Assembly (NCBI RefSeq): GCF_013388945.1
Contig: NZ_JACAEH010000017.1
Coordinates: 1-57,476, forward strand
Direction of reading: 5' to 3'
From: Nitrososphaera sp.
GTDB lineage: Archaea > Thermoproteota > Nitrososphaeria > Nitrososphaerales > Nitrososphaeraceae
Length of the DNA: 57,476 bases
The notes under the pieces were generated by a model that was given only the letters and a program-made list of their open reading frames with translations, had not been told where the DNA came from and did no database searches. A program made the translations under genes and the position numbers. Positions within the stretch are counted from its first letter, which is position 1. Every line of letters starts with the position of its first letter. Positions 35,398 through 48,741 of this stretch are shown here, piece by piece.

Positions 35398-36132
35398 TCA
35401 GCACGTTACGCTTCCAAGCATTCCTTGCACGTACACTTGCTCTATCGCCCTTGACTCGCATTCTCCTATGCCGGTTATGGGCGTGCCGTTGACGACGCTT
35501 ATCGTGTCAGACATCACGCTTGACTTGTCAGTCGAGTGGCCTAGACCCAGGGCGTGGCCCAGCTCGTGGTTGGCGACTGCCATCAAAAACTCCCTGTCGT
35601 TGATATCGCTCACAATCACGGTTATCTCCGCCCTGACTATCGTGCTCTTGTCCATCAAAAGCCGCGCCCTTGACGGCTCGCCGTTTGGCTGGTGCAGAAA
35701 TATCACGATGTCAGACTCCTCACCGCCCGGCGAGAGGACTGGAACCGAGTCGCCGAACTGGCCCCTTTTTTCCTGCAGGACGGCGTTCCAGCCGGCCGAC
35801 GGGTCGAGCAGGTCCTGCACGAACCTGTCGACAGAGGCCCTGTCAAACTGGTCAGACTCTGCCCATACTGTGATGATGCTTTTGTTCCACGCGCCGTTTG
35901 CAACGATGGTGGCCGGCGCCGGTTCTTGCGCGGGTATTTCCGACACTTCTCTTATCACAAAGTCGCTGGTAAAGTCCCTGACCCGGTACTGGCCCGGATC
36001 CTGCGCGGCCGGGGTGATTTCAGCCTCCTTCCTCTCTCCCACGTCGATGTTTGCAGACAGGAAAACGTAGTATGACATGGCGCCCACGACGGCTGCAAGC
36101 GCGGCTGCAAGCAGGGCGTTTCTGCTGTTTAT
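35398..36132 (-). CDS. Membrane-anchored matrixin-type zinc metallopeptidase (copy a)
   Basis: An N-terminal anchor helix (NALLAAALAAVVGAMSYYVF) precedes a domain with the metzincin zinc motif HELGHALGLGH and a Met-turn-like SSVM, as in M10 peptidases. Catalytic Glu and the three His are intact. The C-terminus (GECESRAIEQVY to SVTC) has two Cys conserved in the paralogue at 42503. No ATG, GTG or TTG lies in a sensible place. The best fit is ATA at 36132, which overlaps the kinase stop as ATAA just like the usual ATGA coupling. An ATG at 36207 deep in the kinase gene is the alternative. It probably acts outside the cell membrane, coupled to the kinase upstream. Confidence 0.75.
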   Translation of the reverse strand: MNSRNALLAAALAAVVGAMSYYVFLSANIDVGERKEAEITPAAQDPGQYRVRDFTSDFVIREVSEIPAQEPAPATIVANGAWNKSIITVWAESDQFDRASVDRFVQDLLDPSAGWNAVLQEKRGQFGDSVPVLSPGGEESDIVIFLHQPNGEPSRARLLMDKSTIVRAEITVIVSDINDREFLMAVANHELGHALGLGHSTDKSSVMSDTISVVNGTPITGIGECESRAIEQVYVQGMLGSVTC

Positions 36133-38009
36133 TCTCCACCACCCGTGGCATTTGCAGGAACCGTGAAGTAGAACGTGGTGCCCTTGCCCGAGTCGCTTTC
36201 GACCCATATCCTGCCCCCGTGCGCCTCGACTATGCCTTTTGAGATGGCAAGCCCCAGGCCGCTCCCGCCCGTCTTTCGCGAAAGCGATGTGTCGACCTGG
36301 TAGAACCTTTTGAACAGGTCGGCCTGCTTTTCCTTGGGTATCCCGATTCCATTGTCCCTGACTGCAAAAGTCACGCTGCCGTCGTTTTGCTTCGCAGAGA
36401 CTTCCACAAAGCCCGTGTTTTCAGGGACGAACTTGATGGCGTTATCCACCAGGTTGTCGAGGACCTGGACTATGCGCGTCATGTCGCACCTGAGCGACGC
36501 GCCACTGTCTGAAAGGTCGTCTATCCTGACGTTTCTCTTACGCGCCTTTTGCAAGTTGTGGTTGACGCTTGTCCTGACAAGGTCCGCGGCCCTTGTGACT
36601 TTGAATGCAAATTTTATTTCCCCAAGCTCCAGCTTGTGGGCGTCAAGTATGTTTGATATGAGAAGCGTGAGCGAGTTGGCTGCGTCTGCCACTATCCCGA
36701 CCTTTTCCTTCTGCTGTGGCGTCAGCTCGCCAAGCGAGCCGTCAAGCAAAAGCTCCGAATACCCCAGGATTGCCACAAGCGGAGTCTTGAGCTCGTGGGT
36801 TATCATGGCAGAGAACTCCTCCTTTTCCCTGTCGATTTCGTGCAGCCGAAGCGATGCCTTTACCAACTCGCCGTTTAAGTGGATGAGCTCCTTGTTGCTT
36901 GACTGGACTTTTTCCGTGCTGCTCTTTATCACCTCGACCATCCGGTTAAAGTTCTGGTGGACTATGCGATATTCCTCGTCGGCGGCCTGCTCGGTTATGG
37001 GCTCGAAAGTCCCGTTTTCCACCTTCTTCATGTGCTTCAAGAGCTGGCGCAGAGGGGTCGTGAAACGCTGCGACATCAGGATGGCCACCATTACGGTGGC
37101 TGCCATCACGCCGGCTGTCAGCAGCATAAAGTCGTCCTGCAGGACAAATATCGGAGACAGGACCTCCTGTGCATCCTGCTCGGCTATCACCACGATTCCA
37201 AGCTCGGGTATGCACTTTGAGGCGCCGTAGACAGAAACGCCCCGGTAGTCTGCATACTGGACGCCTTCCAGCTCGACCCGGTTGTCAAAGCACTCACGCA
37301 CCGCAAGCGTGTCGACGCGCACCGGGACCTCGCTTACAAACCTCGACGGGCTGAGCATAATGCCGTCCCTGCCGACAATATAGGTCTCGCCAGTCTGCCC
37401 GAGGTTGGTGTGATCGCCAAGCACCGTGTGCAGCGTGTTGATGTCCCTTGTAACGACAAGCATCCCCCGGTACTCCTCGCCGGCAAACACCGACCTGACA
37501 GGCGACACAACTATCATTTCAGGCTCTTGGCGCTCGTCGTCAAATTCTAAAAGATAGAATGCCCTTTCCAGCCCCTCCGGGAATACGGCCGCGTCATCTA
37601 TGGTGGCACCGAGCAGGGGCGACGTGCCAAGAAAGACGGTCCCGTTTTCGTCTGCCATGCTTATCTCGTAATAGCCTCCCGCAACAGACGACCCTGTCGT
37701 GAACCGGTTGAACCCTTCGTAGAGAAATTCCTCTTCCAGGCTTGCCCTCTCGCCGGGGGCAAGTGCATATTCTGTCCCTTCCAGATAGTGTGCAAGGAGC
37801 AGTTTCTGGGCAGGGGTTTCCTGCGCCGCGGCAGAGACCTGCCTCAGAGTCGAGTCGGAAATGCCTGTTATGGCCCTTGCACGATCGTCAACGATTGCCT
37901 TGAGCGCGTGCCGGGCATTTTCCTGGATTAGGGCCTCTGCCCGAAAGTACGCGACGGCAGACAGCGTCCCTATCGATATTATGGATACCAGGATTGCAAA
38001 GGTGAACAC
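36129..38009 (-). CDS. Membrane sensor histidine kinase 1 (Cache-HAMP-HisKA-HATPase)
   Basis: A 626-residue kinase. Helix 1 (about 3-21) and helix 2 (about 300-320) frame an extracytoplasmic Cache-like sensor that includes GQTGETYIVGRDG and a Cys pair (RECF, SKCI). A HAMP-like stretch follows (TPLRQLLKHMKKVENGTFEP). The kinase core has the H-box MITHELKTPLVAILGYSELL, the N-box DNLVDNAIKFV, G1 DNGIGIP and G2 GGSGLGLAIS. The start is GTG. It is followed with a four-base overlap by the peptidase gene, and the whole sensor is closely similar to that of kinase 2 at 43257. The partner regulator may be the REC protein divergently encoded at 38328. Confidence 0.9.
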   Translation of the reverse strand: MFTFAILVSIISIGTLSAVAYFRAEALIQENARHALKAIVDDRARAITGISDSTLRQVSAAAQETPAQKLLLAHYLEGTEYALAPGERASLEEEFLYEGFNRFTTGSSVAGGYYEISMADENGTVFLGTSPLLGATIDDAAVFPEGLERAFYLLEFDDERQEPEMIVVSPVRSVFAGEEYRGMLVVTRDINTLHTVLGDHTNLGQTGETYIVGRDGIMLSPSRFVSEVPVRVDTLAVRECFDNRVELEGVQYADYRGVSVYGASKCIPELGIVVIAEQDAQEVLSPIFVLQDDFMLLTAGVMAATVMVAILMSQRFTTPLRQLLKHMKKVENGTFEPITEQAADEEYRIVHQNFNRMVEVIKSSTEKVQSSNKELIHLNGELVKASLRLHEIDREKEEFSAMITHELKTPLVAILGYSELLLDGSLGELTPQQKEKVGIVADAANSLTLLISNILDAHKLELGEIKFAFKVTRAADLVRTSVNHNLQKARKRNVRIDDLSDSGASLRCDMTRIVQVLDNLVDNAIKFVPENTGFVEVSAKQNDGSVTFAVRDNGIGIPKEKQADLFKRFYQVDTSLSRKTGGSGLGLAISKGIVEAHGGRIWVESDSGKGTTFYFTVPANATGGGE

Positions 38010-38327
38010 CTTTGACCTGATGCTCGAGAGGAACCTAGGCGTCTGGCAGCACCCCTGTCAAAGTTCGACGGCTGTCTGTAGCCATGTCTTCAAATCCGGG
38101 TATTCCCGGAGGATATTTACGATCCCGGAATTCTTTGCCATGCAGTGCAGTTGCAGGGCAAAACCTGAAAACATACTGCCCAGAGTAATATGCAGGCTCT
38201 TTCTGTCCACTATCGGGCATTTGCGCCAGAGGCGGTGTCAAGCCTGGATACGGGTACAGATGTCGATTTTTATCAGATTGCGTGACAAAGCCCTTTTGTA
38301 GCCGCACTGTACTACATTACAGCAATC
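38010..38327. other. Intergenic region between divergent kinase 1 and REC-output genes
   Basis: About 318 bases hold no convincing gene. An open frame on the minus strand (38035-38307) has no family resemblance and unlikely composition. A TATA-like GTAAATAT on the minus strand near 38114-38121 and sequences before the TTG at 38328 may be promoters for the two divergent genes. Nothing else is visible. Confidence 0.4.
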
Positions 38328-39239
38328 TTGGCAAAAATACTGGCAATAGACGACTCGGAGTACAACACCCAGCTGATAAAAGACATCCTTGCCACAAGGA
38401 ACCACGCAGTCGAGACCGCGTCCTCAGGGGCGGAGGGGCTTGAAAAATATGCGGCGTTTAGGCCCGACGTTGTACTGCTCGACCTTGCCATGCCCGGGAT
38501 GGACGGCAGGGAGGTGCTCGAGCGCCTGATGAAAGTGGACGATAACGCCTGCGTGGTGATGGTCTCGGCGGTGGGCAACAGGCAGATACTTGAAAGCTGC
38601 ATACAAAAGGGCGCAATAGGCTACGTCGAAAAGCCGTTTTCAGTCAGGCACCTTGCTTCAGTAGTCGCGTCGGTAATAGCAGGCAAGGCTTATCCAAAGA
38701 TATTTGCGCTCCTGTCCCTTGTGACAAGCAGGACCGAGAAGAAGGTCCAGGACGTGCTTGGGAGCGCGGCCACGCTCAGGCTTGCAGGCATGAGCATCGC
38801 CGGCGCGCAGAGCCCGGACCTTGAATTCAGGTCAAGGTTTGCAGACAGGTCGTCGATGCACATGCAGCAGGGAACGGCCATCTTTTTCAACAAGTTTTCC
38901 GACGACAGGACAGGCGTGATAGCGTCGCTTGTGCGCGACGAGGACATGGACGTCATCCTGGGCGACGCGCTTTACGAAAAATCGCCGGGCAGGTACAGGG
39001 TGGGTTCGGACTTTTTTTCCCTGATAAACAGCAGGTTCCTTTCAGAGATATCAGAGCACAAGAGAGTCGATCTAAGGCCTGACAGGGCGGAATTCCACGT
39101 CGTCAGCCAGGGCGATAGGTTCTGGGAGTCGCTTGTGGCAGAATATCCAAGGTCGTGTGTAGCGACGCTTGAGATGTTCTACTACGGCAAGGCCGTAGAG
39201 TTTGAGGTGCACGTCAGCTCCGACTCTGACCTGTTCTGA
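38328..39239 (+). CDS. Response regulator with CheC/CheX-like output domain (copy 1)
   Basis: A 303-residue protein with an N-terminal receiver domain. The acidic pair is IDDSE, the phosphoacceptor is VVLLDLAMPGMDG (about residue 49), then MVSA and the lysine in VEKPF. A C-terminal domain (about 150-300) is soluble and of alpha/beta type: QQGTAIFFNKFSDDRTGVIA, SDFFSLINSRFLSEISE, EMFYYGKAVEFEVHV. The layout resembles CheC/CheX-type or thaumarchaeal output domains, but I cannot fix the family. The protein at 47827 has the same architecture. The start is TTG at 38328. It is probably phosphorylated by kinase 1, encoded divergently. Confidence 0.75.
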   Translation: MAKILAIDDSEYNTQLIKDILATRNHAVETASSGAEGLEKYAAFRPDVVLLDLAMPGMDGREVLERLMKVDDNACVVMVSAVGNRQILESCIQKGAIGYVEKPFSVRHLASVVASVIAGKAYPKIFALLSLVTSRTEKKVQDVLGSAATLRLAGMSIAGAQSPDLEFRSRFADRSSMHMQQGTAIFFNKFSDDRTGVIASLVRDEDMDVILGDALYEKSPGRYRVGSDFFSLINSRFLSEISEHKRVDLRPDRAEFHVVSQGDRFWESLVAEYPRSCVATLEMFYYGKAVEFEVHVSSDSDLF

Positions 39240-39603
39240 CTGCCACGTCCTGGATAGCGCGCTGGACATTCTGTATCAGCTGGTGCGTGTAAGGGCCGGC
39301 GACTGACACCACCATCACGTGCCCGCCTTCAAGAGGAAACAGTATGTGGTCGCCCGAGCCGTGGTTCACGACCACGTACCCGACCTTGCCAAACGCCTTC
39401 TCGTTTGTCCGGGGTATGCCCACCAGCAGGTCGAGCTGAAGCAGTATCTTGTCAAGCGCCTTTCCCTCCGGAATGAATATGCCCGGCCTGACGCGGCTTG
39501 CCAGAACCTTTCCCCGCGAAAGCACTGCAGATACAATGATTGACGGGGCAAGCCCTGCGACGCCCTCGCACAGCGATTCATATTCTCGGGTCACCAAGTC
39601 CAT
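39214..39603 (-). CDS. Roadblock-like DUF6659-type protein (paralogue 3)
   Basis: A 129-residue soluble protein with IIVSAVLSRGKVLASRVRPG, KALDKILLQLDLLVGIPRTN and VGYVVVNHGSGDHILFPLEG. It follows the helix-strand pattern of the paralogue at 32193. The ATG at 39603 lies 27 bases after GGCTATATCC, so it is leaderless. The longer open frame to 39813 is not needed. The last 26 bases overlap the end of the REC-output gene on the other strand. Family members near signalling genes suggest a regulatory role, but none is established. Confidence 0.7.
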   Translation of the reverse strand: MDLVTREYESLCEGVAGLAPSIIVSAVLSRGKVLASRVRPGIFIPEGKALDKILLQLDLLVGIPRTNEKAFGKVGYVVVNHGSGDHILFPLEGGHVMVVSVAGPYTHQLIQNVQRAIQDVAVRTGQSRS

Positions 39604-39700
39604 GCGTGGCTGGCATCGCCGGAGGATATAGCCTGCAGGCGTACACTGCCATGCACCGCATACGCCCCGGTAATATGCTATAGTGCAGTACAGCCTCCTG

Positions 39701-39958
39701 ATGATGGGCCAGCAAAAGAGCGTGACAAGCGGCCGCCTGAGGCAGACGCTACTGGGCCTGGAGGACATAATCGGCATGAGCGTGACAGAGACGATAATCG
39801 AGAACTTGAACATGAAGGGTGTGTCCTACGCCCTGAACTGCGACAATATTGTTTATCACAAAAGCGAGATCACAGGCGCGTTTGAAGAGATGCTGGGTCC
39901 GGAGATAGCAGCGCTATTGACGGGGCACCTTGCAAGGCAGTGCGAGGAATTGTGCTAG
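39701..39958 (+). CDS. Small hypothetical protein upstream of phaC
   Basis: A protein of 85 residues with a helical N-terminus (RLRQTLLGLEDIIGMSVTET), then NMKGVSYALNCDNIVYHKSE and a helix EMLGPEIAALLTGHLARQCE. It is soluble with three Cys. A TATA-like TAATATGCTATAG precedes the ATG at 39701 by 27 or so bases, preferred over the GTG at 39683. The pattern resembles small output or regulatory domains of this lineage, without a firm family. PHA synthase starts 50 bases downstream with its own TATA box. Confidence 0.5.
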   Translation: MMGQQKSVTSGRLRQTLLGLEDIIGMSVTETIIENLNMKGVSYALNCDNIVYHKSEITGAFEEMLGPEIAALLTGHLARQCEELC

Positions 39959-40007
39959 GACTGCACTTGCCGCATTTCTTATTAGTTCTGGGGACGTCAT
40001 AAGCCGC

Positions 40008-41300
40008 ATGTATCTGGCGCTGCCTGCAATCGCGGCCAAGGCTGCCGAAGCGCAGTTCAACGCGGCAAGGCTTGGGACCGTCTACGGCTTTGCCTACCTG
40101 CGCGGCTTTCTCCATGCGCTTTATGACAAGAGCCAGGACGGCGCCGACATGTACTCAAAGTGGCTGTCCCGTGTGGACAGCGAGTTTGACGCGGCTCTCA
40201 AGAGCAGGAATTTTGCCTCGATACTTTCCGACTATGTCGATTCCATGATAGACCTCCGAAGGATGTTCCGCGACGCAGGCTACCCCGTCGATTACATGGA
40301 CAGGGCGTTTGACGCGTACGTGCACAACATGATGGTGTTTTCAAACATCCCGGGCAGGTTCAACCTGACGCCGTCTGACGTCGTCCTTACAAACGGCAAG
40401 ACCCGGCTTTTGCACTATCGGGTCGACGGGCAGAAGAAGGGGGCTCCACTGCTTGTGATATACGCCCCGATAAACAGGTACCACATACTTGACATCGAGC
40501 CGGAGAAAAGCGTTGTAAGGAGGCTGGCTTCAGGCGGCCTTGACACATACCTGCTTGACTGGGGGCACCCGGGCCCCGGCGACGACAGCCTGTCGCTCAA
40601 AGACTACGTCGGCTACGTCGAGGCGGCGGTGGATTTCATCAAAAAGTCCGGCGCAGAGAAGGTCTCCATCCTCGGGTACTGCTGGGGCGGGATAATGGCG
40701 CTCATCTATTCGGCGCTCCACGCGGACAGCGTGAACAGGCTGGCGCTCATGGCAGTCCCTGTCGACACAAGCCAGGACGACACCATTCTTGCCCACTGGG
40801 CAAGGGCGCTTGATTCAGACAGGATAGCGGAGGAATTCGGGCACATGGACGGCCAGATGCTTGACCTGGGGTTCATCCTGCGCAACCCGCCAAGGTTTGC
40901 CTTTGACAAATACGTCAGGTTCTTTGAAAAGATGCACGACAGGGGCTTTGTGGACACGTTTACTGCAGTCGAGCGCTGGCTGTACAACACGCCTCCAATC
41001 CCGGGGAACCTGTACAGGGACATCATCAACGGCTGCTACAAGCGCAACGCGCTCTTCAAGGGGGAGATGACGCTCGACGGCAGGAAGGTCAACCTGTCAA
41101 AGATAGACGTGCCGGTGCTTGCAATTGCTGCAGAGCACGACGACCTGGCCTCGCCGGCTTCCACGCTTGCGGTGCTTGGCGCCGTCTCAAGCAAGCACAA
41201 GGACTCGATGAGGATGCCCGGCGGGCACGTAGGGCTGTGCGTGAGTGCAAGCGCCCACAAGAACCTATGGCCGCAAGTCGCAAGGTGGCTTTCGTCTTGA
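40008..41300 (+). CDS. phaC: Poly(3-hydroxyalkanoate) synthase, PhaC type
   Basis: This 430-residue enzyme polymerizes hydroxyacyl-CoA into storage polyester. The alpha/beta-hydrolase core has the lipase-box variant GYCWGG with the nucleophilic Cys at about residue 225. Its setting, YLLDWGHPGPGDDSLSLKDYV, is diagnostic of PhaC. The Asp in AAEHDDLASP and the His in GGHVGLCVS complete the triad. The length suits class III synthases, which need a PhaE partner; none is seen in this window. The ATG at 40008 is 27 bases after TTCTTATTAG and so leaderless; the longer frame upstream would run into the preceding gene. Confidence 0.9.
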   Translation: MYLALPAIAAKAAEAQFNAARLGTVYGFAYLRGFLHALYDKSQDGADMYSKWLSRVDSEFDAALKSRNFASILSDYVDSMIDLRRMFRDAGYPVDYMDRAFDAYVHNMMVFSNIPGRFNLTPSDVVLTNGKTRLLHYRVDGQKKGAPLLVIYAPINRYHILDIEPEKSVVRRLASGGLDTYLLDWGHPGPGDDSLSLKDYVGYVEAAVDFIKKSGAEKVSILGYCWGGIMALIYSALHADSVNRLALMAVPVDTSQDDTILAHWARALDSDRIAEEFGHMDGQMLDLGFILRNPPRFAFDKYVRFFEKMHDRGFVDTFTAVERWLYNTPPIPGNLYRDIINGCYKRNALFKGEMTLDGRKVNLSKIDVPVLAIAAEHDDLASPASTLAVLGAVSSKHKDSMRMPGGHVGLCVSASAHKNLWPQVARWLSS

Positions 41301-41359
41301 GTATTCAGGACTTGCATCATGAAAAGAGATAAATTGCAAACCGGCACTTTTCACCACAA

Positions 41360-42160
41360 ATGACCCAAGCCAAGAGGGGCAAGCTGTACGTCGTCGGCGT
41401 TGGCCCGGGACACCACGACCACATGACGTACAGGGCAAAGCAGGTCATCGAGGAAAGCGAGATAATAGTTGGCTATGAGACTTACGTCGGGCTCGTCGAA
41501 GACTTGATCGCCGGGAAGGAAGTCTACCGCTACGCCATGACGCAGGAAGTCGACAGGGCAAACCAGGCCATAGGGTTTGCAGAAAAAGGCAGGGTCGTGT
41601 CACTGGTGTCGTCTGGCGACCCCGGGATATACGGCATGGTCGGCCTGATTTACGAGATACTTGCCGAGAAGGGCTGGGACAAGGAGACCGGCATCTACGT
41701 CGAGGCGGTGCCAGGCGTGTCGTCGCTCAACTCGTGCGCGGCGCTTGTGGGGTCGCCTTTGATGACTGACTTTGCAGTGGTCAGCATGAGCGACCTTTTG
41801 GTACCGTGGGACATGATAGTAAAGCGCGTCGAGGCCGCGGCGCTTGGCGACTATGTCACAGTCATCTACAACCCGGCAAGCAAAAAGCGCGTGCACCAGC
41901 TGCGCGACACCCGCGACATTTTCCTGAAATACCGCAAGCCCGAGACGCCTGTCGCGATAATCAAGGGCGCGTACAGGGAGACCCAGCAGGTCGTGATTAC
42001 AACGCTAGACAAGATGCTTGAGCACCAGGACATGCTTGGCATGATAACGACTGTCATCGTCGGTAACTCGTCGACTTACAACTACAAGGGCATGATGATA
42101 AACCCCCGAGGCTACACGTCCAAGTACCAGCTCGTGAAAGAGACGCAGGCAAAGAGCTAG
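41360..42160 (+). CDS. cbiH: Precorrin-3B/cobalt-factor III C17-methyltransferase
   Basis: A 266-residue tetrapyrrole methylase. The N-terminus KLYVVGVGPGHHDHMTYRAK is the SAM-binding start of the family. It is followed by VVSLVSSGDPGIYGMVGLIY and VEAVPGVSSLNSCAALVGSP. The middle with YVTVIYNPASKKR and the end with TTVIVGNSSTYNYKGMMINP are typical of CobJ/CbiH. It contracts the corrin ring in B12 synthesis; ammonia-oxidizing archaea make cobalamin by the anaerobic (Cbi) route. A TATA-like GAGATAAATTG is 27 bases upstream of the ATG. No other B12 gene is in the window. Confidence 0.9.
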   Translation: MTQAKRGKLYVVGVGPGHHDHMTYRAKQVIEESEIIVGYETYVGLVEDLIAGKEVYRYAMTQEVDRANQAIGFAEKGRVVSLVSSGDPGIYGMVGLIYEILAEKGWDKETGIYVEAVPGVSSLNSCAALVGSPLMTDFAVVSMSDLLVPWDMIVKRVEAAALGDYVTVIYNPASKKRVHQLRDTRDIFLKYRKPETPVAIIKGAYRETQQVVITTLDKMLEHQDMLGMITTVIVGNSSTYNYKGMMINPRGYTSKYQLVKETQAKS

Positions 42161-42502
42161 CGTATCATGGACTGTCAGAAAAGTCTCGAACTTTACGATA
42201 AGCCAAGAACTATGGGATCTCGACTGCGGCATCTTGCGATTAGCCGATGTCGACTGAATTCCAGTCTGCAAGAGATGCGTCTGACCCATCGGATGGACTA
42301 GCTGTGCCAATTGTTGTCTACCACCGTCTGCCGGCGTCCACTGGCAATTTCGGGTGAAACACATCTAGAATACTCTGAGGTACGACTCTTCAATAATTCT
42401 TGACTTTGATAGAGTACCAGACATGAGAGTTGGCGACAGAAAAGGAAATCAAGCAGGATAAACTGTTATTTAGTACAGGTCTTGGAGTAGAAAGTTAGCC
42501 AA
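42161..42502. other. Intergenic region before peptidase copy b
   Basis: About 340 bases with short open frames only. A 42-codon plus-strand frame begins near 42167 but has no promoter or family resemblance. The only sign I would trust is a TATA-like GTTATTTAG near 42466-42474, 27 bases before the start region of the peptidase gene at 42503. Confidence 0.4.
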
Positions 42503-43273
42503 ATGGCGAACCCAAAGAAGGCGATTGCCATTAGTGCAGCCGCAGCTGGCGGATCTTTACTACTCGTGGCTTTTGTCCTGAATTCGCTTGTCGCAACTGG
42601 CATGGTCATCCGCGACATTGAGACTAGCGAGCACGCCGACGATGTGCTAATGGTCACACAGACCCCGGAAAGTGCGGCGGGTCCCCAGACCCTAAACCTC
42701 AACGGCTACTGGAAAAAACCTGTTGTCACAGTTTCATTCATACCCCAAGGTATTTCGCAATCCGAGCTTGAGCAAATGACTGGGACGCTTGAGGAGACAA
42801 TGCAAGTTCGAATAGAAGGTTCGTCCAGCAATTCGACTACCATGTTCATAGGATGGCCCGACCTGCTTGCCACCCTGTCGAACAGTTATAGTGTGCCATA
42901 TTTGCAGACAATAGAACTGGGCTCGGAGACTGCGGACATCAGAGTCTACCTTGACGGAGAGAGTCACCCAGACAACAAGCTGGGTCTGGCAAGGATAGCC
43001 AGAGATAAGGTCACTCACGAGATAGTGTACGCAGAGGTACACGTGTATTCCGTGCGTGAGCTGCATCAGGTCGGCGTATTGGATCAGGTCTTCAAACATG
43101 AGCTTGGGCACGCGCTTGGAATTGGACATGGCAGCTCTCAAACCAGCATCATGCACAGCCCGATAATCATTGTCAACAATACCGCGATAGGCAACATAGG
43201 GGATTGTGAGGCGGAAGGCACAGCGCGTGTCTACTCTGGAGGCGGCATCGGCGAGGTCACCTGCCGGCTGTAG
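42503..43273 (+). CDS. Membrane-anchored matrixin-type zinc metallopeptidase (copy b)
   Basis: A 256-residue protein with an N-terminal helix (AIAISAAAAGGSLLLVAFVL) and an extracytoplasmic M10-like domain. The zinc motif HELGHALGIGH has intact His and Glu, followed by SQTSIMHSPI as Met-turn. The C-terminus GDCEAEGTARVYSGGGIGEV ending TCRL carries two Cys at the positions seen in copy a at 35398. The overall identity to copy a is modest outside the zinc site and tail. Its last 17 bases overlap the end of kinase 2 on the opposite strand. A TATA box (GTTATTTAG) precedes it. The substrate is unknown. Confidence 0.85.
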   Translation: MANPKKAIAISAAAAGGSLLLVAFVLNSLVATGMVIRDIETSEHADDVLMVTQTPESAAGPQTLNLNGYWKKPVVTVSFIPQGISQSELEQMTGTLEETMQVRIEGSSSNSTTMFIGWPDLLATLSNSYSVPYLQTIELGSETADIRVYLDGESHPDNKLGLARIARDKVTHEIVYAEVHVYSVRELHQVGVLDQVFKHELGHALGIGHGSSQTSIMHSPIIIVNNTAIGNIGDCEAEGTARVYSGGGIGEVTCRL

Positions 43274-45185
43274 AATTTTGCACAGTCATAGGAATAGAAA
43301 AATAGAATGTAGATCCTGCACCGGGCTTGCTTTCAAACCAGATCTTTCCCGCATGCGATTCAACTATGCCCTTTGATATGATGAGGCCAAGGCCGCTGCC
43401 CCCTGCCTGTCTTGTCAGTGACTTGTCGATCTGGTAGAATTTTTTGAAAAGGTCACGCTGTTTGCCTTCGGGTATGCCGATGCCGTTATCCTTCACAGAG
43501 AACAGCACATGATCGTCACGTTTTGTGGCGGACACCTCGATCATGCGGTGGTTGCTCTCTTTTGTGGCCTTGATTGCGTTGTTGACCAGATTATCAAGTA
43601 CCTGTAAAATCCTCTGCTGGTCGCACACAAAGTACACATCGTCGGCGTCTGACACGATATCGAGCGCGTACAACTTGGCAAGAGGGAGCGAGCGGCTGAC
43701 ACACTCTTCTACCAGCTTTTTTGCAGATACCTGCGCCGACATCTTCATTTTGAGAACGCCGTATTCCAGCTGGCGCGCGTCTATGATGTTCTGTGTCAAG
43801 TACAGAAGCGACCATGCTTTTTCAAGCACGACTTTCAGCTGGTTTTTCTGAGGCACCGTTAGCTCGCCAAATGTGCCGTCAAGCAATAGTTCCGAATAGC
43901 CTATTATTGGGACGAGGAATGTCTTTAGTTCGTGCGAGATCATTTCAGAGAACTCTTCCTTCTCCCTGTCTGCCTTGATGAGCTCGTCTGCCTGCACCTG
44001 CAGCCTGGAGGACATGAAAGAGAGTATGTCGTTCTTCAAGTGGAGCCTTTTTGTCTTGATCCCGATTTCCTCTACCATTGTGTTAAAGCTGTTGGCAAGT
44101 TCGCCTATTTCGTCGCGCCTTTCAATGTCCACCTTTTCAAAACGTCCCGTCTGTACGTGACCCATAGTCTTGCGCAGGCTCTGCAGCGGCTTCAGAATTG
44201 AGACGGAGAGGAAAAAAGACGCGCCCGCAGCCGCGAATATTATCACAGCGGTTATCAGTAGGTACTGATTCTGAAGAAGTACAAGCGGACCAAATAGTTC
44301 TGCGCTGTCCACTTCTGACACCAGTACTACCCCAAGACTCTTTTCGCAACTCGAGGCCCCGAACACTGTAACCCCACGGTAGCTAGGGTAAGACGCGCCG
44401 TTTACGTCCGCGCTATTGCGGAAGCACTCTTGCACGGGAGGCGTGTCAACTATCTGGCTGTTCCTCGCTCCCGCAACAAATCTCGAGTCGGTGATCATCA
44501 GACCGGCATTGTTTACTAGATAATTCTCTCCGGTGGCTCCCAGAAACATCTTGTCCGCCAGTAAGCGGTTGGCATCATTAAGGTCACGCAAGAGTACTAC
44601 ATAGCCGGCCACAGGCGAGTCTGATTGTGGACGAACAGGTGCCGCAGCCACGAACAGGGCTGCAGAGCTGCTGTCAACAGAACCTATCGCATAATACGAA
44701 CGTTGGCTTGCCCTAGCCATCATTTCTCGGGAAAGCACAGTCCCCTCTTGTGCGGGGTCCCCGGCTACCAGCACCAACCCCTGTGAGTCGGATATCCTGA
44801 CCTCAACGTATGTGGCATCTCTTCCCTTTGTAAGTGCTTCAAAGTCTGCGACTGTTTCCCGAGCGGCCTGCTCCGAACTTGTCTGCGTACTGGGCTGGAG
44901 TAAGGAGACGACGTTCGGGTTTCGGGCCAGCGATTCCGCCTGTTCAACTCTGAGATTCCACACATTCTTCAGAGTCTGCATCCTATCAGACGCGATGACG
45001 TTCATCCTCTGGGCGGCATCGTCTTTTATGATCTTCTGACCAATATCTATGCTGATGGTTGCAAGTCCGGCTATAGACAGGATGGATGTAGCCATCACCA
45101 GCACTACCACTTGTGTGTGCAGGCTGCTGCCGATAGGATTCCTGATGCGTATTTTCTTTGGCGTCTTGCTGCCTAGGATAGCCAT
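43257..45185 (-). CDS. Membrane sensor histidine kinase 2 (Cache-HAMP-HisKA-HATPase)
   Basis: This 642-residue kinase has helix 1 near 32-50, a large Cache-like sensor and a second helix near 310-330. HAMP follows (SILKPLQSLRKTMGHVQTGR), then a kinase core with DNLVNNAIKA, DNGIGIP and GGSGLGLIIS. The H-box is MISHELKTFLVPIIGYSELL, with Phe where Pro is almost always found. The sensor matches kinase 1 (GATGENYLVNNAG, QECF, YRGVTVFGASSC). The ATG at 45185 overlaps the end of the response-regulator gene upstream by 13 bases. It is the last of five co-directional signalling genes. Confidence 0.9.
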   Translation of the reverse strand: MAILGSKTPKKIRIRNPIGSSLHTQVVVLVMATSILSIAGLATISIDIGQKIIKDDAAQRMNVIASDRMQTLKNVWNLRVEQAESLARNPNVVSLLQPSTQTSSEQAARETVADFEALTKGRDATYVEVRISDSQGLVLVAGDPAQEGTVLSREMMARASQRSYYAIGSVDSSSAALFVAAAPVRPQSDSPVAGYVVLLRDLNDANRLLADKMFLGATGENYLVNNAGLMITDSRFVAGARNSQIVDTPPVQECFRNSADVNGASYPSYRGVTVFGASSCEKSLGVVLVSEVDSAELFGPLVLLQNQYLLITAVIIFAAAGASFFLSVSILKPLQSLRKTMGHVQTGRFEKVDIERRDEIGELANSFNTMVEEIGIKTKRLHLKNDILSFMSSRLQVQADELIKADREKEEFSEMISHELKTFLVPIIGYSELLLDGTFGELTVPQKNQLKVVLEKAWSLLYLTQNIIDARQLEYGVLKMKMSAQVSAKKLVEECVSRSLPLAKLYALDIVSDADDVYFVCDQQRILQVLDNLVNNAIKATKESNHRMIEVSATKRDDHVLFSVKDNGIGIPEGKQRDLFKKFYQIDKSLTRQAGGSGLGLIISKGIVESHAGKIWFESKPGAGSTFYFSIPMTVQNSTAGR

Positions 45186-45550
45186 CCCTCGATCTTTTCT
45201 AACAGGAACTTTTTGCTGAAAGGTTTCTTGATGCAATCCAAGACGCCAAGTTCTTCAACATTTAGTTCTGTTGCAAGTCCTGAGGAAGAAGCGGTAAAGA
45301 AGACGATTTTCTGGCCTGCGAGCAACCCTTTCTTCCGTAGCGCGTGTATCACATCGATGCCGCTAAACGATGGCATGGCTACGTCGAGTAGGACGAGGTC
45401 GTACTTTTCCTGTTCAAGTTTTTGCACGCATTCGATGCCCTTGTTTGCCACGGTGCATGCGTATCCTGCGGACTCGAGTATCAGGCGCGTGAGGTCAGAG
45501 ATACTGCTGTCATCGTCCACCACGAGTATTTTCTTTGCCAACCGTGTCAC
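45173..45550 (-). CDS. Single-domain response regulator a
   Basis: A 125-residue receiver domain with VVDDDSS, the phosphoacceptor in VLLDVAMPSFSG, FFTASS and the lysine in IKKPF. It has no output domain, so it must act by protein contacts or as a phosphate relay. The GTG start overlaps the preceding regulator's stop (GTGA), and its end overlaps kinase 2. A coupled receiver next to two kinases suggests a phosphorelay or that it serves as a shared sink. Confidence 0.88.
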   Translation of the reverse strand: MTRLAKKILVVDDDSSISDLTRLILESAGYACTVANKGIECVQKLEQEKYDLVLLDVAMPSFSGIDVIHALRKKGLLAGQKIVFFTASSSGLATELNVEELGVLDCIKKPFSKKFLLEKIEGWLS

Positions 45551-45930
45551 CCTGACGTGTGCTTTCCCACAAAATTCAGTAGCTCAGCTTTGGTGAAGGG
45601 CTTTCTCAGGCATCCACGTGCGCCCATTTTTTCGTAATCAGCGATATCCAAAGAGGTGGCCGACGATGCGGTAAAAAACGCTACGTTGACCCGTTCAAGA
45701 GATCCTTCCTGTTTCAGCGCATTCAGAACATCTACTCCCGAAAAGCCGGGCATTGCTACGTCAAGCAAGATGAGATCGTAGCCATCATCGTTTTGATAGC
45801 TCGCCCTTACTGCATCAAGGCAGCTTTTTCCATTATTCGTTTTTGTACAGACGTATCCTGCAGAAGTGAGTATTATCTCGGCGAGGTCGGCCACATTCTT
45901 GTTGTCGTCTACGACAAGGATCTTTTTCAT
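45547..45930 (-). CDS. Single-domain response regulator b
   Basis: A 127-residue receiver domain (ILVVDDNKN, LILLDVAMPGFSGVDV, FFTASS, LRKPFTK) similar to the neighbouring regulator a, apparently from a local duplication. Its ATG overlaps the stop of kinase 3 (ATGA) and its own stop overlaps the start of regulator a. It lacks an output domain. Confidence 0.88.
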   Translation of the reverse strand: MKKILVVDDNKNVADLAEIILTSAGYVCTKTNNGKSCLDAVRASYQNDDGYDLILLDVAMPGFSGVDVLNALKQEGSLERVNVAFFTASSATSLDIADYEKMGARGCLRKPFTKAELLNFVGKHTSG

Positions 45931-47801
45931 GCCTCGGCGCCTCCAACAGCATTGTTGACCATTGGTATCGAGAAATAGAAAGTTGAACCGACCCGGGGCG
46001 TGCTTTCAAACCAGATCTTGCCGCCATGCGCTTCAACTATTCCTTTTGATATTGCAAGACCTAGACCACTGCCGCCTACCTCTCTCCGAAGCGATGTATC
46101 CACTTGATAGAACTTGCTGAACAGCCTGGCCTGCTTTTCTTCAGGTATACCTATACCATTGTCTTTTACAGCAAACTCGACGGAGTTGGAGTTCCTTCTT
46201 GCTGTTACTTGCACCACGCCGGTTTTTTCTGACACAAACTTGAGGGAGTTACTAATCAGGTTGTTCAGCACTTGCTGGATCCTTTTGGGATCGCATGATA
46301 GCATCAGGTCGGAGCCCCCGCCGTCAGGAGCCGCGGTATAGGTCAGCGCAATCTGTTTTGACTTGGCAAGTGGTAGGAACGAGCCCACAGCTTGTCCCAC
46401 TATGTCCTTGACAGGAGTTTCTAGAACATCGAATTTCATCTTGCCCATCTCAAGCTTGCGAATGTCCAGAAGGTCAGAGATGAGCCCTGAAAGTGACACA
46501 GCGCTGTCGTGCATCAACTGGATCTTTTCTTTCTGAACAGGCGTAAGCTCGCCAAGCGTCCCGTCAACCAAAAGTTCAGTGTACCCTACTATTGGCACCA
46601 AGGGAGTCTTGAGCTCGTGGGTTATCATGGCGGCAAACTCTTCTTTCGCAGCGTCCATCTCCTTCAACTGTGTAGCTTTTAGATCGAGCTCCTTGGCCAG
46701 GTACTCTAGGTGCTCGTTTTTTGACTTGAGCTCGCTTGATAGTGATTCCAGACGGGCCTTGTCCCCTTTCAGGTTCTGATTGAGAGTCTTGAGCTCTTCG
46801 TTTACGTCTTCCAGTTTGTCCGTGAGGCGGACGTTGCCAAGCATGGAGCGGAAGAGAATGTACCCTGACACGCTCATTATTCCTACTGTGATGGCAATGA
46901 TGGACAGTGCCTCGCTCTGATGCAGATACACGTCGCTGAACGCGTCTGAATAGGGCTGGATCAGAAGAACAGACCACCTGTTGCTTCCGAGGTCCACCGG
47001 GGCACGGGTAATGTACGTGTCTTTACCGCTTGCATCGATCCTGGCGGACATTGCGGTGTCGCCCATGATATCTTGCAGGTAGGAGAAGGAACGCCGCGGT
47101 GTGGTATCCCCCACCGGTCTGTCTGAGCTTGCTATCTCGTTCCAGTCTCCGTCAACGATTACCGCGACTTCGTTTTCGTCGAGGTCGAGCATCCGGAGTT
47201 GCTCGTTGATGACGCCCAGATTCAACGCTCCTACCAGCAAGCCAGCAAGTGATCCATCCTTGAAAACAGGAACCGCAATAACTGTTGTATAGTTGTATGT
47301 GGCTGTAGACTGGAATGCGGCGCTTACGTAGGTGTTCTGCCTGTTGATCACTTCGATATAATAATCGCGGTATGCAAAGTTGACAACCGGCAGGTTTTGC
47401 TGGAGTATCGACGGCTCGACGCTATACACGTCGCCATTTGGCATGAGAAATCCTATTGACTCGAGGCTCGGAACTGCCAAAAGTACGGCCTTTTGCACGT
47501 TTCTCTTTTCCATGTCAACGTTGACGGGTACCCCTTTGTTTTCTTCACTGATTAGGTCCGAGTATTCCGTACTTTGCATCTGTGGCATGTCGGCAGCCAC
47601 TTCGAGTGCTGCGATTGCAGTCTGCACGTGCTGCCCTGCCTGGCGTGCCATCGAGCCGGCAAGATTGCCTTTATTTTTTTCCACGCTTACAATCTCTTTG
47701 TTGATATCTTCGGTCAAAAAGAAGTAAAAGATCGTTATGACAAGTGCTGATGCGATTGCACCGATTATTACCGGTTGTAGTGCAGCCCTGCGCATAGTCA
47801 T
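45927..47801 (-). CDS. Membrane sensor histidine kinase 3 (Cache-coiled coil-HisKA-HATPase)
   Basis: This 624-residue kinase has helix 1 (PVIIGAIASALVITIFYFFL) and a double-Cache type sensor including FAYRDYYIEVINRQNTYVSA, a signature of dCache_1. Helix 2 follows near 310-330. A long coiled coil rather than HAMP (about 335-395: LEDVNEELKTLNQNLKG and onwards) leads to MITHELKTPLVPIVGYTELL, N-box NNLISNSLKFV and GGSGLGLAIS. Its sensor differs from those of kinases 1 and 2. The ATG at 47801 follows GAGGTGA by a few bases; a longer frame to 47900 would overlap the gene upstream. Confidence 0.9.
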   Translation of the reverse strand: MTMRRAALQPVIIGAIASALVITIFYFFLTEDINKEIVSVEKNKGNLAGSMARQAGQHVQTAIAALEVAADMPQMQSTEYSDLISEENKGVPVNVDMEKRNVQKAVLLAVPSLESIGFLMPNGDVYSVEPSILQQNLPVVNFAYRDYYIEVINRQNTYVSAAFQSTATYNYTTVIAVPVFKDGSLAGLLVGALNLGVINEQLRMLDLDENEVAVIVDGDWNEIASSDRPVGDTTPRRSFSYLQDIMGDTAMSARIDASGKDTYITRAPVDLGSNRWSVLLIQPYSDAFSDVYLHQSEALSIIAITVGIMSVSGYILFRSMLGNVRLTDKLEDVNEELKTLNQNLKGDKARLESLSSELKSKNEHLEYLAKELDLKATQLKEMDAAKEEFAAMITHELKTPLVPIVGYTELLVDGTLGELTPVQKEKIQLMHDSAVSLSGLISDLLDIRKLEMGKMKFDVLETPVKDIVGQAVGSFLPLAKSKQIALTYTAAPDGGGSDLMLSCDPKRIQQVLNNLISNSLKFVSEKTGVVQVTARRNSNSVEFAVKDNGIGIPEEKQARLFSKFYQVDTSLRREVGGSGLGLAISKGIVEAHGGKIWFESTPRVGSTFYFSIPMVNNAVGGAEA

Positions 47802-47826
47802 TGATAGTTCACCTCGCTGCAAAGTG

Positions 47827-48741
47827 TCATTTGAACAGCCCCCCATCATAGCACATCTGTATCGCAAACGGAACCGTTTTGCCGCCGTAGCCCATCTCAA
47901 AAATGCCCATATCTATCCTGTTCCACATTCTCGCGGCTTCTTTCCAGAAATTGCCCATCGCGCCCGGCCTTACAAAGGACATCACCGCCTCCCCATTGAT
48001 ATTTGACCGAGTTGAATTGGCCAGTTCGGAGGTGACCTTGATGTTTATCATGTTGAAAAATTCTGTTGCTTTGTCAGGTGTCTTGTTTTCGATGTGATCG
48101 TTGGTGCCGAACAGGTATTGCAGCTCGGCGGCTTCTATCACAGATATGACCATGCCCTCTCTTTCTCCAGTTATCCTCGTGACAAAGCAGACGTCATGTT
48201 CAGAAGGCGTGTAGTGCTGTCCCTGCGCAGCACCGTATCTGCCTTGATCCACCTCGAGATTCCGGATAGTCTGGATGTTTTTCAGCTCGATATAGGAGTC
48301 GGGGAAAAATGAGTCTCTTGCAATGTGGCGAAGCTTACTCTGAAGATGAGAAAAGAAAATAGCTGCGTCATGGTTGCAGTACTTGCGACTTTCCATAGTC
48401 CTCTTTATCGTGTTGACGAGGTCGCTTGCGTTGAATGGTTTTGATATGAAGTCAATCGCACCTTCTTGAAGACAGCGTTGCAGAGCGGATGAATGGTTCG
48501 CTGCAGTGAGCATTATCACGTTTACGTAGTTGTCCAAGCGTTTCAGCGAAGCAAAGGTCTCATAGCCGTCCATGCCAGGCATTGCAAGGTCCAGAGTGAC
48601 GACATCAGGCCGGAATTCTTTATACTTAATCAACCCCTCCTTGCCGCTATGCGCAGTTTCTACCTCGTACCCTTTCGAAGACAATGCTGTCGATATTAGC
48701 TCCAAAACGGTGCTGGAGTCGTCTATCGCCAACACCTTCAT
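47827..48741 (-). CDS. Response regulator with CheC/CheX-like output domain (copy 2)
   Basis: The 304-residue first gene of the signalling operon. The receiver has LAIDDSS, VVTLDLAMPGMDG, MLTAA and ISKPF. The C-terminal domain with EFFNMINIKVTSELANSTRS and GIFEMGYGGKTVPFAIQM has the layout of the copy at 38328. It may belong to the CheC/CheX phosphatase-like group or a lineage-specific output domain. It precedes kinase 3 by 25 bases and so probably works with it. Confidence 0.75.
   Translation of the reverse strand: MKVLAIDDSSTVLELISTALSSKGYEVETAHSGKEGLIKYKEFRPDVVTLDLAMPGMDGYETFASLKRLDNYVNVIMLTAANHSSALQRCLQEGAIDFISKPFNASDLVNTIKRTMESRKYCNHDAAIFFSHLQSKLRHIARDSFFPDSYIELKNIQTIRNLEVDQGRYGAAQGQHYTPSEHDVCFVTRITGEREGMVISVIEAAELQYLFGTNDHIENKTPDKATEFFNMINIKVTSELANSTRSNINGEAVMSFVRPGAMGNFWKEAARMWNRIDMGIFEMGYGGKTVPFAIQMCYDGGLFK

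Follow-up and report, generated by a model that had tools for sequence, protein, structure and literature searches.

A predicted membrane-anchored matrixin encoded with two-component signalling genes in ammonia-oxidizing archaea, and its possible control from inside the cell

Background

In the LapD/LapG system of periplasmic proteolysis, the c-di-GMP receptor LapD acts by sequestering a second protein, the cysteine protease LapG. BlaR1 combines a penicillin-binding sensor domain with a cytoplasmic protease of a metalloprotease type other than the matrixins, and involves no histidine kinase. In Thaumarchaeota, a census of archaeal two-component systems found mostly stand-alone receiver (REC) proteins with unknown outputs, and it noted that certain response regulators of archaea have HisKA but no HATPase (Galperin et al. 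2018, PMC5847659). Most response regulators of these nitrifiers are of the stand-alone kind and so give no indication of the role of their two-component systems. The main text of the census contains 0 occurrences of peptidase or protease, so the HisKA-TM-matrixin and dCache-matrixin architectures reported here are not described there. No publication tying matrixins to two-component genes was found in the open literature (subscription papers and preprints lie outside this scope), and the sole match there for Nitrosopumilus and matrixin concerns sponge symbionts. As far as the open literature goes, the original prediction that no archaeal system of this form had been described is therefore borne out.

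Results

The window, that is, the whole stretch of DNA analysed here, comprises 57,476 nucleotides from Nitrososphaera sp. and contains two pairs of adjoining histidine kinase and peptidase genes (Table 1). The four open reading frames lie where the original prediction had placed them, its end of kin2 being the ATG at 45185, and the co-directional arrangement of pep1 and kin1 and the convergent one of pep2 and kin2 are both as it described. The overlap of pep1 and kin1 is 79 bp, if pep1 starts at its first ATG, and that of pep2 and kin2, at their 3' ends, is 17 bp. With that start of pep1, the predicted overlaps at the kinase 3' ends are present in both window pairs; the second is absent from another Nitrososphaera genome, G042 (one contig, 2,527,938 bases), where a gap of about 110 bp separates the genes. 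Identity is 33% between pep1 and pep2 (E 2e-26) and 38% over 635 aa between kin1 and kin2. Peptidase_M10 is found above the Pfam cut-off in both peptidases (38.9 bits in pep1, cut-off 24), as are HisKA and HATPase_c in kin1, kin2, and kin3. For dCache_1 (cut-off 45), kin3 scores above the threshold at 65.2 bits, and kin1 (39.5) and kin2 (28.0) score below it.

Table 1 Two-component and peptidase genes of the window
Gene	Coordinates	Strand	Features
pep1	35398..36207	-	N-terminal TM anchor (one TM) and predicted extracellular matrixin; HELGHALGLGH, Met-turn, two-Cys tail
kin1	36129..38009	-	dCache-type sensor (Cys pair, YRGVSVYGAS), HisKA, HATPase_c; upstream of pep1, overlapping
REC with C-terminal region without Pfam family	38328..39239	+	Response_reg 87 bits
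pep2	42503..43273	+	N-terminal TM anchor, predicted extracellular matrixin, two-Cys tail; AlphaFold2 model has MMP fold
kin2	43257..45236	-	dCache-type sensor, HAMP, HisKA, HATPase_c; convergent with pep2; likely start ATG 45185
Stand-alone REC	45173..45550	-	Response_reg 83.2 bits
Stand-alone REC	45547..45930	-	77.3 bits; 63% identity to REC at equivalent place in G042
kin3	45927..47900	-	dCache_1, HisKA, HATPase_c; sensor of the type linked to the peptidase across Nitrosopumilaceae
REC with C-terminal region without Pfam family	47827..48741	-	105.5 bits; length similar to 38328-39239

Neither stand-alone REC of the window has a DNA-binding domain detected by Pfam, and a transcriptional output is for that reason not obvious. 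The other two REC proteins, at 38328-39239 and 47827-48741, are each about 300 aa long, and their C-terminal regions, similar in length, are not recognised by Pfam and possibly represent a lineage-specific output domain. The DNA between the two kinase-peptidase pairs (39930-42160) encodes a tetrapyrrole methylase and a PHA synthase-like alpha/beta hydrolase of the PhaC type. The PADLOC models of known anti-phage defence gave no match for the four proteins tried (pep1, pep2, one DHp fusion, and one dCache fusion), and identity with such a defence system was rejected.

By motif, Pfam match, and the modelled fold of pep2, pep1 and pep2 are predicted matrixins (Peptidase_M10). Both have the HExxHxxGxxH zinc motif and the Met-turn, which are intact in 81 of 84 members of the peptidase family. 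The AlphaFold2 model of pep2, based on an alignment of the two window peptidases with 18 related proteins, has a matrixin fold (pLDDT 85, pTM 0.81), with Foldseek similarity to MMP-7 (E 5.8e-6) and structural similarity to karilysin (Z 13.9, rmsd 2.8, 148 aligned residues). Hydropathy indicates a single N-terminal transmembrane (TM) helix preceded by a K/R-rich stretch, so the predicted orientation is N-in/C-out. A PRCGxPD cysteine switch is absent from pep1 and pep2, the only cysteines of pep2 being the two in its tail, and neither protein is therefore classed as a vertebrate-type MMP zymogen. This two-Cys tail is present in 76 of the 84 family members, linked or unlinked to two-component genes, and also in solo paralogues on contig 6 of the window genome and in G042, G026, G030, and G002. 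A branch of short matrixins of about 200 aa (loci L154, L155, L156, L162, and L166) lacks the tail; in L154, L155, and L162, the short matrixin adjoins a gene of about 535 aa that is, judging by its start, a putative CTP synthase.

The marks of the kin1 and kin2 sensors (Cys pair and YRG motif) recur, complete or in a close variant, in a chemoreceptor that is encoded without a peptidase in a che operon on contig 17 of the window genome; G042 and G026 have the same gene. The copies at L073:7616-9871 (window genome), L075:7675-9960, and L077:7601-9880 contain the Cys pair and YRGIPVYGAS. The sensor family is therefore common to kinases and chemotaxis. Another group of kinases, with no peptidase beside them, has the Cys pair and YRG motif as well, again complete or in a close variant. 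The conserved Cys pair, YRGVxVxGAS, and two-Cys tail singled out in the original prediction are thus real, but they are family-wide and occur in unlinked members too. As markers of the pair, the tail and YRGVxVxGAS were rejected, given their presence in solo peptidases, the chemoreceptor, and peptidase-less kinases.

The PDB holds no sequence relatives of the kin1/kin2 sensor at E 0.01, and the nearest entries to the kin3-type sensor are KinD and the amino-acid chemoreceptors PctA and PctB. The dCache_1AA motif for amino-acid binding includes a conserved Asp (D173 of PctA; PMC10104139). In a profile alignment with PctA, the kin3-type sensors partly retain the Arg and aromatic positions and have Ala in place of this Asp, which leaves amino-acid sensing unsupported by the motif. 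At L074:4970-7312 and L074:7254-9671, a kin2-like sensor kinase, followed by a REC, adjoins a gene that joins an amino-acid permease to a universal-stress domain; Pfam identified this neighbour in L074, and by length the arrangement recurs in L076, L078, L079, and L080. The permease gives a hint as to the compounds sensed. Divergent pairs of stand-alone kin3-type dCache proteins (300-345 aa, no kinase) are found at about 4000-6300 in L219 and L220; these are conserved in two Nitrososphaera genomes and have many relatives within the family.

Pair 2 is conserved in one of the 17 other Nitrososphaera genomes searched, G042, in the same context as in the window (kin3, REC, REC, kin2, then convergent pep2). 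Identities of the orthologues are 56% for kin2, 60% for kin3, 63% for one REC, and 40% for pep2. That the association survived rearrangement, as originally proposed, holds, and it extends past the window genome. Adjacency in related genomes differs between the pairs: pair 1 was found in the window genome only, with the same 17 genomes searched, whereas pair 2 recurs in G042 and linkage to two-component genes is found across the peptidase family. The description of the locus as a duplicated pair is compatible with the trees. The kin1 and kin2 sensors group with the second kin2 sensor (95/92), kin1 lying on a long branch. In the peptidase tree, a clade of pep1, pep2, and the G042 peptidase is not recovered, though not rejected either (AU p 0.18), and it cannot serve as proof of joint duplication. 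A joint duplication of kinase and peptidase is thus possible from these trees.

To look beyond the genus, we searched 400 genomes of the order with a profile built from the Nitrososphaera peptidases. At E <= 1e-6, 238 of them, chiefly Nitrosopumilaceae, contain relatives, with up to six per genome; the weaker of these relatives may be other matrixins. Strong matches in a phylum-wide scan were restricted to Nitrosopumilaceae and Nitrososphaera. We then annotated 40 neighbourhoods, picked on peptidase score alone and regardless of kinases. Their ORFs were predicted by a greedy rule with ATG/GTG/TTG as possible starts, and small HMMs served to recognise REC, DHp, HATPase, peptidase, and sensor domains; many of the genomes are fragmented. 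Of the 42 peptidases inside, 20 directly adjoin a two-component gene or are fused to one, and 21 of 22 such adjacent genes are co-directional with the peptidase. By our own estimate, about 4% adjacency would be expected, given about 38 kinase and REC matches per genome among the matches listed; as the genomes are related to each other, a binomial probability would exaggerate the contrast. In a control of ten complete genomes, 7 of 48 matrixins have a REC no further than 2 kb away (1.5 expected, p 5e-4) and 6 of 48 a kinase ATPase domain at that distance (1.6 expected, p 0.005), a moderate enrichment in a count of all M10 matches, other matrixin types included.

The kinases of the kin1/kin2 type behave differently. 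Among the 150 strongest sensor and 150 strongest peptidase matches in the 400 genomes, no further pair of this type lies within 20 kb, and the exact pairing is confined to one genus. As framed in the original prediction, the tie between such kinases and the peptidase is not supported, and adjacency as a general rule was rejected among the matches listed. These kinases almost always occur without a peptidase. About half of the peptidase family members have no two-component neighbour.

The conserved partner of the peptidase is instead a kin3-type kinase with a stand-alone REC. In Nitrosopumilaceae, a recurrent gene order is dCache kinase, stand-alone REC, and a matrixin with a preceding coil and TM helix, with or without an N-terminal DHp domain. 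The sensors of these operon kinases are homologous to that of kin3 (25-31% identity), and the conserved core of the window is therefore kin3-REC-peptidase; kin2 and pair 1 were apparently added within Nitrososphaera. A kin3-type sensor profile, built from peptidase-linked kinases and so leaning towards linked ones, gave 34 matches in Nitrosopumilaceae, with a peptidase in the operon or fused in 22 of the 31 assessable. Kinases of 540-725 aa with a kin3-type sensor and no detected DHp mostly lack the peptidase.

About a dozen genomes encode the peptidase with an added HisKA/DHp domain at its N terminus; these fusions have the phospho-acceptor His but no kinase ATPase domain. HisKA (40-48 bits, cut-off 26.9) and Peptidase_M10 (35-39 bits, cut-off 24) share one uninterrupted ORF in L134, L143, L158, and L159, and named records matching the fusion over the full query come from Nitrosarchaeum, Ca. 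Nitrosotenuis chungbukensis (L173), and other Thaumarchaeota. In L131, L171, and L212, a small gene of its own encodes the DHp, flanked by the REC on one side and the peptidase on the other, and L163 resembles a fusion divided between two ORFs. The H-box His (HELRTP-type) is retained in all fusions except L208, which has a second DHp gene, and by this residue the fused DHp is a predicted phospho-acceptor. A model of one fusion, indicative only at a mean pLDDT of 69, consists of DHp helices, a long TM-containing helix, and the protease domain. A second kind of fusion, in L197:4281-6062 and L204:3805-5583, joins a kin3-type dCache sensor, two TM helices with a short inner loop, and a matrixin in single ORFs without a kinase; these are possibly ligand-gated surface proteases.

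The history of the linkage was followed on trees without inferred roots. Seven changes of two-component linkage are needed on the peptidase tree and at least five changes of peptidase linkage on the sensor tree, where kin3 is unresolved at depth. A single clade of DHp-HATPase kin3-type sensors was rejected by the AU test, and the sensor tree therefore does not point to one simple origin. Both trees have poor resolution at depth and are compatible with one ancestral link followed by losses as well as with repeated gains.

Discussion

The association of kinase and peptidase is confirmed as real and beyond chance by the presence of pair 2 in a second genome and the linkage of 20 of 42 family members. 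We interpret the locus as an ammonia-oxidizer two-component module in which a membrane-anchored, outward-facing matrixin would be a working part, controlled from inside the cell, and give this reading a probability of about 0.5. The genes for a dCache kinase, for stand-alone RECs, and for a TM-anchored matrixin whose zinc site is intact lie together. The kinase would sense a small extracellular ligand and then phosphorylate the REC, and the phosphate or a conformational change would reach the matrixin at its DHp and coiled coil. Against this reading stand the family members with no two-component neighbour, about half of the total, the restriction of the kin1/kin2-type pairing to one genus, and the make-up of the window peptidases: these have no DHp and no long cytoplasmic coil, so coupling there would occur through contact of the kinase or REC with the short anchor, or amount to co-expression only. 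Input through DHp and coil, or through the anchor, would change proteolysis at the surface across the membrane, an inside-out control that we propose tentatively from the fusions. The peptidase may also generate or degrade the ligand that the kinase senses, which would close the loop.

The adjacency could be a matter of chance, or arise from mis-annotation where ORFs overlap in the window genome, as might be suspected from the restriction of pair 1 to that genome and the loss of the 3' overlap of pair 2 in G042. This is very improbable, since pair 2, kin3, and both RECs are syntenic in a second complete genome and the Pfam matches are above cut-off; for the family as a whole, the association across Nitrosopumilaceae refutes it. 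A looser connection, in which a nutrient-scavenging surface protease belongs to the regulon of neighbouring two-component genes and is not coupled to them at the protein level, would fit the solo half of the family, the clustering of two-component genes in these genomes, and the enrichment that is only moderate once all matrixins are counted. We nevertheless regard it as improbable, because there are two independent kinds of fusion (DHp-matrixin and dCache-matrixin), genes for DHp alone lie between REC and peptidase, and the two stand-alone RECs of the window have no Pfam-detected DNA-binding domain. The fusions argue for functional coupling of the peptidase with two-component signalling.

The direction of this coupling is less certain. 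The original prediction held that the peptidase may cleave a ligand or the sensor itself. In such a scheme the dCache kinase would respond to the cleavage or its product, the substrate being the sensor, a peptide, or another protein outside the cell, and the DHp would only dock the peptidase to its kinase. The predicted topology, which puts sensor and peptidase on the same face of the membrane, is consistent with such outside-in signalling, as are the dCache-matrixin ORFs of L197 and L204, the resemblance of the kin3-type sensor to PctA/PctB and KinD, the permease-universal-stress gene beside the kin2-like kinase in L074, and the reported precedent of a histidine kinase as protease substrate, VgrS in Xanthomonas (PMC6237974). 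However, the Ala in place of the motif Asp gives amino-acid sensing by kin3-type sensors no support, and a phospho-acceptor DHp on the peptidase would be superfluous for producing a ligand; we consider this explanation unlikely, though it deserves more weight than the two above. Because the phospho-acceptor domain lies inside, without a kinase ATPase and behind a REC gene, its simplest reading is as an input to the protease. Given the DHp-matrixin fusions without ATPase, the peptidase is at least as likely to be a controlled output as to act by cleaving the sensor or a ligand. The most specific form of inside-out control, in which the matrixin ectoprotease would be a direct transmembrane output of a His-Asp phosphorelay, the phosphate state of the inner DHp setting the activity outside, is a possibility that we hold with somewhat less than even confidence.

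The gene arrangements suggest that ammonia-oxidizing archaea may gate surface proteolysis through two-component signalling. If the phosphorelay-output reading is true, two-component systems would have an output of a previously undescribed kind. A protease wired into or fused to signalling proteins provides a concrete, testable output for these abundant nitrifiers, and it would also tie environmental sensing to cell-surface remodelling or peptide uptake in organisms regarded chiefly as chemolithotrophs.

With the archaeal two-component systems of the census (PMC5847659), the locus and its relatives share histidine kinases with extracellular sensors, mostly stand-alone RECs, and HisKA without HATPase. 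The window peptidases have the HExxHxxGxxH motif and Met-turn of matrixins such as karilysin and MMP-7, and the pep2 model has their fold; the family differs from these in its N-terminal TM anchor with the catalytic domain outside, its two-Cys C-terminal tail, and its fusion or linkage to signalling domains, and pep1 and pep2 also in having no cysteine-switch motif. Proteolysis is reported to be connected to histidine-kinase signalling in the VgrS case too (PMC6237974), but there the sensor is the substrate, whereas the archaeal protease, known from genes alone, is encoded in or fused to the module. As in BlaR1/MecR1, sensor and metalloprotease are joined in one membrane protein in the dCache-matrixin ORFs, although the archaeal matrixin is predicted to face outward and its sensor is a dCache domain. 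The proposed logic is shared with LapD/LapG, where a cytoplasmic signal controls proteolysis across the membrane; in the archaeal module, the input would be a histidine phosphorelay and the output a metalloprotease that is in part of the cases encoded in the same polypeptide.
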